Below the pieces are notes generated by a model. The model saw nothing but the letters and a program-made list of their open reading frames with translations, searched no databases and was not told the origin of the DNA. Below are positions 37,642-40,754 of a DNA stretch of 41,114 nt, one piece after another. This DNA is from an uncultured Bacilli bacterium. Lineage in GTDB: Bacteria > Bacillota_I > Bacilli_A > RF39 > UBA660. The DNA lies in NCBI GenBank assembly GCA_944350415.1, contig CALVOY010000039.1, forward strand, positions 1-41,114, in the 5' to 3' direction. Position 1 is the stretch's first letter. Every line of letters starts with the position of its first letter. The translations under genes were made by a program, and so were the position numbers.

Positions 37642-37666
37642 AAGAACATTTGGAATGTTCTTTTTA
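37639..37666. terminator. Bidirectional terminator between tmk and the pilus ATPase gene
   Basis: A perfect 10-bp stem AAAGAACATT (37641-37650) / AATGTTCTTT (37654-37663) with a TGG loop and A/T tracts on both sides. It serves the two convergent genes. Confidence 0.85.
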
Positions 37667-38884
37667 ATTGGAATGTTCAGCAATTTGGGTATCCCAATCA
37701 TCTTCAATCTCGATCAATTTATAGATTTCTTCAAAGGTAGTGTATCCTTTTAGTACCTTATCCAAGCCATCCTGTAATAAGGTGATAACATGATCTTCTC
37801 CATAAACCATTTGCCTTAAATCTTCTTTTTTTAGATTCTCATTAGAGAGTTGATCTCTTAATTCTTCATCAATGAATAGTACTTCTTGAATGGCAATTCT
37901 GCCATGGTAACCGTTCGAACAGTTTTCGCATTTGTCGGTGTCCCAAATTTCTGGTACATCTTTATGTAAAATCTTTTTAAATATTTGTTTTTCAAAAGGA
38001 GTAGTAGGTCTTAGCTTTCGACAATGAGTACAAAGACGTCTAGCCAATTTCTGAGAAACAATTCCTGTTAAGGCACTAGATAACAAATATCTTTCTACAT
38101 CCATATCTAGTAGTCTTTCAATTGTACTTAAAGAATTATTGGTATGAATAGTAGACAGTACCAAATGTCCGGTAATCGAAGCACGAACTGCAATTTGAGC
38201 AGTTTCAGAATCACGAATTTCTCCAATTAGAATAATATTAGGATCTTGTCTTAAAATAGAACGAAGAATATTAGCAAAAGTAAGATCAATATCTGAATTT
38301 ACTTGCACTTGATTAATTCCTTCAATGTTCATTTCAATTGGATCTTCTACCGTAATGATATTTCTTTCCTCATCGTTTAGTTCTTGAAGCATCGAATAAG
38401 TAGTGGTAGACTTACCGGATCCAGTCGCTCCAGTAACTAAAATAATACCATTCGGAACAGATAACATCTTTTCTATTTTGGCATAATTTTCAGGAGAAAA
38501 GTCTAAACTTTTTAAACCATTTAAACTCATGCTGTAATCTAAAATACGAATAACAGCTTTTTCTCCTTCATTTGTAGGAAGAACAGATACACGCATATCT
38601 AGTTCCGTATTGTCTATTTTTCCTTTGATGGCTCCATCTTGAGGCAAACGATTTTCTGTAATATTCATTCCGGAAATCAGCTTGATTCTAGTAATTAAAT
38701 TTCTCTCATAAGCCTTTGGAATCATAGCATGATCTCTCAAATTCCCATCAATACGCATTCTAATTTTAAGAGAATCTTCCATTGGATCGAAATGAATGTC
38801 AGATGCTCTCGATCTTACACCTGTAATAATAATTTTATTTACCAAATCTACAATCGGTGTTTTTTCTACATCATAGTTTATCAT
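37664..38884 (-). CDS. GspE/PilB/ComGA-type secretion ATPase
   Basis: A 406-aa type II secretion / type IV pilus assembly ATPase. Walker A GATGSGKST lies at 152-159, the Asp box near 176-190, and Walker B IILIGEIRD near 217-225. The His box ITGHLVLSTIHTNNS follows, then a zinc site with paired CxxC (CTHC at 285-288, CENC about 30 residues later). It lacks the long N1 domain of GspE, as ComGA does. It is divergent from two prepilin genes, so it probably drives assembly of that pseudopilus. No PilC/GspF or prepilin peptidase is in the window. Confidence 0.9.
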   Translation of the reverse strand: MINYDVEKTPIVDLVNKIIITGVRSRASDIHFDPMEDSLKIRMRIDGNLRDHAMIPKAYERNLITRIKLISGMNITENRLPQDGAIKGKIDNTELDMRVSVLPTNEGEKAVIRILDYSMSLNGLKSLDFSPENYAKIEKMLSVPNGIILVTGATGSGKSTTTYSMLQELNDEERNIITVEDPIEMNIEGINQVQVNSDIDLTFANILRSILRQDPNIILIGEIRDSETAQIAVRASITGHLVLSTIHTNNSLSTIERLLDMDVERYLLSSALTGIVSQKLARRLCTHCRKLRPTTPFEKQIFKKILHKDVPEIWDTDKCENCSNGYHGRIAIQEVLFIDEELRDQLSNENLKKEDLRQMVYGEDHVITLLQDGLDKVLKGYTTFEEIYKLIEIEDDWDTQIAEHSN

Positions 38885-38981
38885 AATTTTTCCCTCAACT
38901 TTATTCTTTTTTGTATAGCATTTTATTCTAATTTATTATATAATATTTTTGATATAGAATCAATAAAGGAAAGTGAATTTT
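38885..38981. promoter_or_regulatory. Divergent promoter region, ATPase / prepilin genes
   Basis: A 97-base AT-rich spacer. A TATAAT lies at 38939-38944 on the + strand; the same AT block could give a reverse -10. GAGGGA serves the reverse gene and AAAGGAAAGTG the forward gene. No convincing -35 on either strand. Confidence 0.4.
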
Positions 38982-40154
38982 ATGAAATTATTGAATAAAA
39001 AGGGGTTTATTTTAGTAGAGACATTGGTTGTAACTTTATTTGTAACGACCTTATTTATTTTGGTATATCAAAATCTAGTTCCTTCCATTGGCGAGTATGA
39101 AGCAATGACCTCTTACGATGATATCGATAGTGTCTATGCTGCCAATGTATATAAACAAAGTCTATTACGCTATGGAAATATGGATTACATTGATTCTTAT
39201 TTAACCAGTCATACCTATTTAGACATTACCAATTGTGACGACAGCAACATTTATAAAAATAGTGACTACTGTAAAAAAATCAAAAGAGCGCTTAGTATTT
39301 TAGAAGACGATTATATCTTTATTACCAACTATAATATTAGCGATTTTAGGGCAGAAGTGAATCAAGATGAGTTCTTTGACTCTGGTAAATTAAGTAATTT
39401 TAAAAACTATGTTGCTACAGTAAGTGATACCGATTCTTTTTATGATGAAACCAATCCTGACAATACTATAGTTGGAAAGTACCGTCTATTTATGACCCGA
39501 ACGGTGACCAATCCAGACCAAACGACTTCCTTAAAATATACCAACTTAGGAATTTATACAGGATCCTATAAACGCTATAACATGGGAGAAACTGTTACCT
39601 TTGCTCCTGGTACATCTACTGGAGAAATGACATTTTATGTTTTAAAAAATAGTCCTTCTACAGAAAGTACAGTAACTTTAATATTAGATAGAAACATTGG
39701 AACTGCTACAACATTTAATTCTACAGGAACAGCCGCTGCTCCTGATACCGCTTTAGCTATGTTAAAGAATAATACCGATTCTTGGGATCAGGCCAATTTG
39801 TTTACGGCAGCTGATCAATATGTATCTTTGAATGGGTACACCATTTCCTATGCTGGTTATCGAGCTAGATTGTTAGAACCTAATGATATTTATGCTATAT
39901 TTGGTAATAGAATAGAGGAAGATTATTTTGATAGTAATTCTTTGTTTCCGATTTCTTTTCAGGATGATTCTTTACGATTTTTGTCGAACCAATTAACAGG
40001 GGCAAATGGCTATTGGATGGCAAATATGGTACCAGGAAGTACTGAGATGGCTTGGACAGTGCAAAATCAAAAGCTAGCACCAACCTTGATCAATAATGGT
40101 TCGAATATCGGAGTTAGACCTGTGATTGAGGTTTCGAAAGAGAAGTTAAAGTAG
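38982..40154 (+). CDS. Prepilin-like protein with C-terminal DUF6273-like domain
   Basis: A 390-aa protein (ATG 38982 after AAAGGAAAG). It begins with a class III prepilin signal: KKG8/F9 cleavage site and Glu at +5 (E13) in KKGFILVETLVVTLF, then a long hydrophobic helix. The middle (about 40-195) is a Cys-containing pseudopilin-like region. From about residue 195 the sequence changes to MGETVTFAPG, FYVLKNS, TVTLILDRNIG, YWMANMVPG, AWTVQNQ and IGVRPVIEVS. This is the pattern of DUF6273 (C-type-lectin-like/FGE-like) domains of Firmicutes surface proteins. A pilus-tip or minor pilin adhesin is the inferred role. Confidence 0.75.
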   Translation: MKLLNKKGFILVETLVVTLFVTTLFILVYQNLVPSIGEYEAMTSYDDIDSVYAANVYKQSLLRYGNMDYIDSYLTSHTYLDITNCDDSNIYKNSDYCKKIKRALSILEDDYIFITNYNISDFRAEVNQDEFFDSGKLSNFKNYVATVSDTDSFYDETNPDNTIVGKYRLFMTRTVTNPDQTTSLKYTNLGIYTGSYKRYNMGETVTFAPGTSTGEMTFYVLKNSPSTESTVTLILDRNIGTATTFNSTGTAAAPDTALAMLKNNTDSWDQANLFTAADQYVSLNGYTISYAGYRARLLEPNDIYAIFGNRIEEDYFDSNSLFPISFQDDSLRFLSNQLTGANGYWMANMVPGSTEMAWTVQNQKLAPTLINNGSNIGVRPVIEVSKEKLK

Positions 40155-40163
40155 GTGATATCC

Positions 40164-40754
40164 ATGAAATTGAATAATAGAGGCGTTAGTATTATTGAAA
40201 TTGTAGTAACCTTTGCTCTCATTATGGTAATGGTAGTAGGAATGCTAGCCATTGTCTTTCGCTATCGCGAAAAAGCTAGTATTAGCTTAGAAAAACTAGA
40301 ATTGGATACTTTTAAGAACACACTGACCAAAGATATTCAAGATGATATCTTAAATAAAGGGGTAAAAACCATAAACTACGAAGGAGAATGTTTAACGAAC
40401 ACAGAATTGAATAGTTGTATTAATATTGTGTTTCAAGATGATACCGAAAAAGCCTTTGGTACTAGTAAAGTAGATACCAATGATCGAGAAAGTATAGAGA
40501 ATAAGTTTTTATATTATGATGGTATTAAATACCGTTTAAGTGATACCTTGCCTACTAAGATTCCTACTGGAAGAGATGCCGTTGATTTTCAAACAATCGT
40601 CATTCAAGATAGTAACATCTTAAGCACAGATTCGATGATATTAGAAGACGGAACTTTAGTTTCTTTTTATGCAATAGATGTTTATATTAGTCATATTGAT
40701 TTTGAGGAAGATTTTGGAATTCATATTGTAGCATATTCTGAAAATAATGGCTAA
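40164..40754 (+). CDS. Prepilin-like protein 2
   Basis: A 196-aa protein; ATG 40164 follows TAGGTGAT. The class III signal is NNRG7/V8SIIE12, with Glu at +5 and a hydrophobic helix (IVVTFALIMVMVVGMLAIVF). The rest is a charged pseudopilin-like domain with one Cys pair (ECLTNTELNSC). It follows the first prepilin by 9 bases in the same operon. It resembles minor pseudopilins (ComGD/GspH-I type) in form; exact class unknown. Three bases separate its stop from the convergent YlbJ-like gene. Confidence 0.75.
   Translation: MKLNNRGVSIIEIVVTFALIMVMVVGMLAIVFRYREKASISLEKLELDTFKNTLTKDIQDDILNKGVKTINYEGECLTNTELNSCINIVFQDDTEKAFGTSKVDTNDRESIENKFLYYDGIKYRLSDTLPTKIPTGRDAVDFQTIVIQDSNILSTDSMILEDGTLVSFYAIDVYISHIDFEEDFGIHIVAYSENNG

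Follow-up and report, generated by a model that had tools for sequence, protein, structure and literature searches.

A prepilin with a predicted C-type-lectin-like module in an uncultured Bacilli bacterium and the apparent exchange of modules between two adjacent minor pilins

The gene pilX of an uncultured RF39-like Bacilli bacterium codes for a prepilin in which a small pilin module is followed by a C-terminal module of predicted C-type-lectin-like fold. The product is probably a modular minor pilin located at the pilus tip, where the lectin-fold module would bind an extracellular ligand, and comparison of related species indicates that such modules are exchanged between PilX and its neighbor PilY. 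The names pilX and pilY are coined here for two adjacent minor pilins encoded beside pilB. The three genes lie in a stretch of 41,114 nucleotides, hereafter the window, which is contig C39 of a 1.18-Mb genome (76 contigs, about 92% complete). The orthologous loci belong to MAGs that bear the label uncultured Bacilli or Tenericutes and in many cases apparently stem from animal gut samples; one MAG, grouped in the same genus as the window, was filed as Candidatus Scybalousia intestinigallinarum and is now Alloscybalousia, Bacilli.

Modular pilins are already known. A count made in 2021 arrived at more than 1,200 such proteins in 264 architectures and warned that undefined modules escape it (PMC8179133). 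What is new here is the DUF6273-like module and the swapping between two carriers. A literature search, mostly of journals accessible without subscription, retrieved no paper on type IV pili of RF39-like Bacilli and none on pilins with DUF6273; it likewise yielded no DUF6273-like C-type-lectin fold on a pilin and no single module alternating between two adjacent pilins. A sequence-only reading of the window had noticed the fusion and proposed a pilus-tip adhesin: the observation is confirmed and the interpretation partly supported.

The prepilin, its neighbors and the assembly machine

The features of the window are collected in Table 1. The pilX entry runs from the ATG to the last base of the stop codon, and the stretch AAAGGAAAG stands just 5' of the ATG. 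The N-terminus reads MKLLNKKG/FILVE and retains the class III features pointed out in the sequence-only reading (G8/F9, E13): F9 follows the predicted cut and E13 would become E5 of the mature protein. In an alignment of 14 orthologues from 14 genomes G8, L11, E13 and T14 are invariant, as are C85 and C97, which could form a disulfide. The AlphaFold2 model of the pilin module comprises an N-terminal helix (12-43), an alpha/beta body and a final beta hairpin (167-191), the confidence of the full-length model being middling (pLDDT 74). In relatives the pilin part also occurs alone, as a protein of 180-206 aa.

Table 1. Features of the pilB-pilX-pilY region of the window
Feature	Coordinates	Strand	Basis
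pilB, GspE/PilB-type assembly ATPase, 406 aa, divergent from pilX	37664..38884	-	T2SSE, GspE
Divergent intergenic region, expected promoters of pilB and pilXY	38885..38981	.	position
pilX, modular prepilin, 390 aa	38982..40154	+	ORF, conserved motif, purifying selection
Class III leader MKLLNKKG, predicted prepilin peptidase cut after G8	38982..39005	+	sequence; G8, E13 invariant
Mature pilin module, residues 9-190	39006..39551	+	AlphaFold2 model; alignment
C-terminal module, residues 191-390, divergent DUF6273-like, predicted C-type-lectin-like fold	39552..40151	+	model, Foldseek, VIA-align
pilY, second minor prepilin, 196 aa, MKLNNRG/VSIIE	40164..40754	+	N_methyl, ComGE, synteny

Pilin profiles matched PilX below threshold (NCBIfam ComGD E 0.003, N_methyl 12 bits), and the ComGD score of 17.9 against a cut-off of 70 does not make of it a curated ComG pilin. 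Sub-threshold matches of this kind are common for minor pilins. Because the profile matches are weak, the assignment of PilX as a prepilin draws on the motif, its conservation and the genetic setting. The second prepilin and the divergent, likely assembly ATPase announced by the sequence-only reading are both real. PilY was matched by N_methyl at 15.9 bits, under the cut-off, and by ComGE at E 0.0018; it is here in its short form, whereas in sister species pilY bears the extension. The PilB-type ATPase was recognized by T2SSE (Pfam, E 2.1e-121) and by the GspE model (E 4.6e-141), its ComGA score being 270.7 for a cut-off of 300. In the intergenic region, promoter-like sites were no commoner than in shuffled sequences. 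An RNA-family scan returned nothing over threshold.

The remaining parts of a type IV filament machine are encoded elsewhere in the genome. PilC (two T2SSF domains) and PilD (A24 peptidase with its N-terminal domain), whose absence would have spoken against a pilus, are neighbors on contig C6. Just downstream of PilD, an ORF cut by the contig end (L053, 1-4707, minus strand) codes for a surface protein of at least 1,569 aa with a camelysin-like start. Four further prepilins are grouped on C58 and others are found on C75, C33, C48 and C47. The 'compact system' of the sequence-only reading therefore holds for the adjoining pilX, pilY and pilB, but not for PilC and PilD, together on one other contig, nor for the other prepilins, spread over several. 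The assembly holds three T2SSE-type ATPases, namely PilB, a Tad-type enzyme (contig C60) and an enzyme resembling VirB11/TadA (contig C2), and a Tad system is also encoded. The C2 enzyme belongs to a cluster (L055, 2551-12754) that also encodes a sortase, a 610-aa protein with two DUF6273-like stretches, a SAF-like protein and two TadB/C-like membrane proteins, and that looks, from its gene content, like a further secretion or filament system.

None of the three ATPases inspected in this assembly, about 92% complete, is a PilT, and PilM had no match over the cut-off in the genome. ComEA directly precedes a full-length ComEC on contig C14 (L193), so that this reduced genome probably codes for DNA uptake. 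With an ATPase, a platform protein and a peptidase, with ComEA and ComEC, and with no PilT or PilM detected in this assembly, the filament resembles a minimal Com pilus. The resemblance lies in the parts list and not in the gene order, the layout being scattered where a comGA-GG operon would be expected.

Fold and family of the C-terminal module

Residues 191-390 are predicted to fold as a separate domain. Modelled alone on a 33-sequence alignment of module relatives, they reached a pLDDT of 90.4 and a pTM of 0.89. The best solved match was residues 32-288 of PDB 9qa6 (Foldseek E 7e-4, prob 0.99; VIA-align Z 11.0, rmsd 3.6 over 163 residues, 12% identity), which are the DUF6273 N-terminal domain of the Thomasclavelia ramosa IgA peptidase (PMC12402451). 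The second was the C-terminal domain of Legionella Lcl (PDB 8q4e, Z 8.3), and most of the top 50 VIA-align entries were C-type lectin-like domains (Z 5.6-6.9). The predicted fold thus agrees both with the C-type lectin-like fold and with the solved DUF6273 fold, as the sequence-only reading had supposed of a prepilin fused to such a domain. The full-length model gave no significant Foldseek match because its two domains and its pLDDT of 74 blur the comparison, which the module modelled alone resolved; TvpA, a DGR protein, scored Z 5.0 against the full-length model, within the range of common arrangements, and was set aside. A PDB sequence search returned nothing significant. An ordinary pilin C-terminal domain, the outcome that would have contradicted the sequence-only reading, was rejected on the module model and on the short orthologues, which end where the module begins.

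The family assignment is less direct. The DUF6273 style ascribed by the sequence-only reading to the last ~190 residues was borne out by the fold and not by the sequence, PF19789 (DUF6273) giving no match to PilX even at E 1 and hence no gathering-level score. Eight of the 33 module relatives match PF19789 weakly (best E 1.7e-4), and a profile comparison with strict DUF6273 modules aligns no more than the last 47 columns, at the C-terminal end (prob 36%). Because this alignment is so short, the homology is argued from the fold and from the shared YWT...GVRP ending; as the module falls below the Pfam cut-off by sequence, it is classed, on the strength of the model, as a divergent relative of DUF6273. 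The fold is common to the PilX module, 9qa6 and the DUF6273 domains of phage tentaclins, which were likewise reported as C-type-lectin-like (PMC10743442), whereas the carrier differs: a pilin here, a sortase-anchored protease in T. ramosa and a phage receptor-binding protein in tentaclins.

The module contains neither WND nor QPD and its single EPN is not conserved; a canonical sugar-binding lectin was rejected for the lack of the first two motifs. Lcl-CTD is also C-type-lectin-like without canonical calcium/sugar motifs and is a glycosaminoglycan-binding adhesin domain (PMC11162425). The two domains have in common the fold, the absence of disulfides and the missing motifs, although Lcl belongs to a different family (DUF1566) and is trimeric on a collagen stalk. 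A lectin fold in common with known lectins does not show a common function.

Modules on PilX and PilY across the family

PilB was found in 143 of 154 genomes of the family (E <= 1e-100), usually beside PilX and PilY. Of the 80 named loci and 19 genome loci examined, most show the same pilB/pilX/pilY arrangement. What the two pilins carry varies. Among the 74 loci with both genes complete, 46 encode two short pilins, 12 an extended PilX only, 10 an extended PilY only and 6 both, an extension being defined by a length cut of 285 aa (three loci lie just above it without a recognized module, and a few loci are duplicates). The fewest extension changes on a quick PilB tree amount to 8 on PilX and 6 on PilY, approximate figures given the many weak forks.

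Within the genus of the window, PilX bears the C-type-lectin-like module in seven genomes, two of which have a further, different extension on PilY. The remaining loci examined in the genus bear on PilY a glycine-rich domain matching ALK_LTK_GRD (E 1e-42 in the one locus scanned by Pfam, the others being recognized with an HMM built here), and four of these also have a Cys-rich extension on PilX. In L081 the C-type-lectin-like module is mounted on PilY. In another clade a tandem DUF6273 block, over the Pfam cut-off in L132 and L135, is found on PilX in L135, L141, L143 and L156 and on PilY in L132 (coordinates L135:1189-3057 and L132:2129-3970); compared between the two carriers, the blocks show 54-59% protein identity and 66-70% DNA identity. 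In other close relatives pilX lacks the block. L143 and L152 align at about 90% DNA identity until the short pilX ends, and again from 1.33 kb further on; the same pattern is seen between L141 and L150, with flanks at 95% and 90%. At the 3' end of pilX, close species differ by the clean insertion of the tandem DUF6273 block. Judged from these sequence comparisons, the C-terminal module is a cassette that can be exchanged and mounted on one or the other of the two neighboring pilins, a point beyond the reach of the sequence-only reading. This suggests that related species may exchange what the pilus tip can hold on to.

The glycine-rich domain of animal ALK/LTK receptors (ALK_LTK_GRD, PF12810) is thus encountered on a bacterial minor pilin. 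It was located on PilY orthologues of sister species and of a distant clade, at L070:2214-3848 (minus strand), L071:6486-8063, L136:2536-4422 and L153:4780-6690, with E 1e-42 to 2e-28 (three scanned by Pfam, L071 by the HMM built here).

The lectin-fold module extends beyond PilX. Its HMM converged on 39 ORFs among the loci compared. Prepilins account for 17 of them, one being a PilY and the rest of the PilX type or the GFTLIELLAV type; the other 22 are not pilins and include lipoproteins, camelysin-like proteins and proteins with a plain signal peptide. With 22 of 39 carriers outside the pilins, it is a module of surface proteins in general that has been placed on pilins repeatedly. One carrier, a 424-aa protein (L057 on contig C30, 1111-2385), combines a camelysin/TasA-like N-terminus with a PilX-type C-terminal module ending SGIRPVIVVSKQNIQK. 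Three genomes (G022, G127 and G136) hold 16-19 module matches each, which suggests a lineage-specific expansion.

Selection differs between the two halves of pilX. Against a 97%-identical orthologue, the pilin half gave a dN/dS of 0.03 and the module one of 0.11, a contrast made of 10 versus 3 amino-acid-changing differences (13 in all; G000 versus G014); against a 66%-identical orthologue the values were 0.14 and 0.34, with synonymous sites near saturation. Both halves are under purifying selection. The rate of change is 2-3 times higher in the module, as would suit a binding domain that is exposed.

Role of the module on the filament

The closest known system is that of Streptococcus sanguinis, whose modular pilins PilB and PilC are adhesins modelled at the pilus tip, PilC with a lectin module, and bind host proteins and glycans through their modules (PMC8179133, PMC9934059). 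Both systems are found in monoderms and involve class III prepilins with a small pilin module and a bulky C-terminal one, two modular pilins side by side and a minimal assembly machine. They differ in the modules, vWA and concanavalin-A-like lectin in S. sanguinis but a C-type-lectin-like DUF6273 relative in PilX, and in the exchange of a module between two adjacent carriers across species, seen here and not for S. sanguinis PilB/PilC. Adhesion is proven for the latter, whereas PilX would be adhesive by analogy. On the same analogy, the PilX module is most likely displayed at or near the tip; against this, PilX and PilY both keep E5, so that neither looks like an E5-less tip-most subunit.

The preferred reading can be described as follows. 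PilD would cut PilX after G8, and the N-terminal helix would pack into a filament with PilY and other pilins, PilX and PilY presumably associating in a minor-pilin complex. The filament would be assembled by a minimal type IV machine composed of PilB, PilC and PilD, no PilT having been found. Since the shaft would not accommodate so bulky a domain, the C-type-lectin-fold module would be displayed at or near the tip and would bind a ligand on a neighboring cell, on host mucus or on a particle. PilX and PilY are conserved carriers between which modules of several types (DUF6273-like, ALK/LTK glycine-rich and others) are exchanged, and the same machine would thereby be directed to different targets in different species.

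In an unlikely but serious alternative, the filament is a Com-type DNA-uptake pilus with PilX and PilY as tip minor pilins, and the module helps to capture DNA or to assemble the tip instead of adhering to surfaces. The ComEA/ComEC pair, the lack of detected PilT and PilM and the weak resemblance of PilX and PilY to ComGD and ComGE are all as in the Firmicutes Com pilus (T4dP), and the monoderm tip pilins ComGD and ComGF capture DNA (PMC12153270). However, the Com pilus binds DNA via pilin bodies and not via a grafted module (PMC12153270). There is no comG operon here, pilB being divergent from two minor pilins and PilC and PilD encoded elsewhere. Most relatives lack the module, and its type, carrier and presence vary among close relatives, a pattern more in keeping with a changing ligand than with DNA. 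With ComEA and ComEC in the genome the filament may nevertheless take part in DNA uptake, and a mixed role, that of a DNA-uptake pilus with an adhesive tip, is possible.

A further alternative, quite improbable, makes of PilX a pseudopilin or a surface protein in which the prepilin peptide does no more than export and anchor the domain, with no pilus tip involved. The many non-pilin carriers of the module and the additional Tad system would accommodate such a protein, but pilX is strictly linked to pilB and a second prepilin, E5 is conserved, and module-free PilX-type pilins are kept across the family, so that the pilin part has a role of its own. Diversification of the module by a DGR into a hypervariable receptor, known for the tentaclin DUF6273 domains of some phages (PMC10743442), can practically be dismissed, the only reverse transcriptase found in the genome being a group II intron maturase (TIGR04416 E 1e-132) and the module showing ordinary purifying selection.

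Beyond the modular tip pilin, a broader and tentative proposal is that the two conserved minor pilins are interchangeable mounts. Unrelated binding domains (DUF6273/C-type-lectin-like, ALK/LTK-like glycine-rich, Cys-rich and others) might be swapped on them by recombination between genes and species, thereby changing the attachment target of the same, possibly DNA-uptake-capable, filament. A C-type-lectin-like fold is added to the modular pilins, and DUF6273, a family without assigned function, is given a setting. The ALK/LTK-type glycine-rich domain borne by a pilin in sister species offers a second testable case. A conserved filament whose module differs between close species, with clean present and absent sites, provides a natural series on the evolution of pilus specificity. 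Gut Bacilli of this kind, with reduced genomes, are uncultured, and the gap addressed by a modular tip pilin is how they may hold to their hosts or partners.
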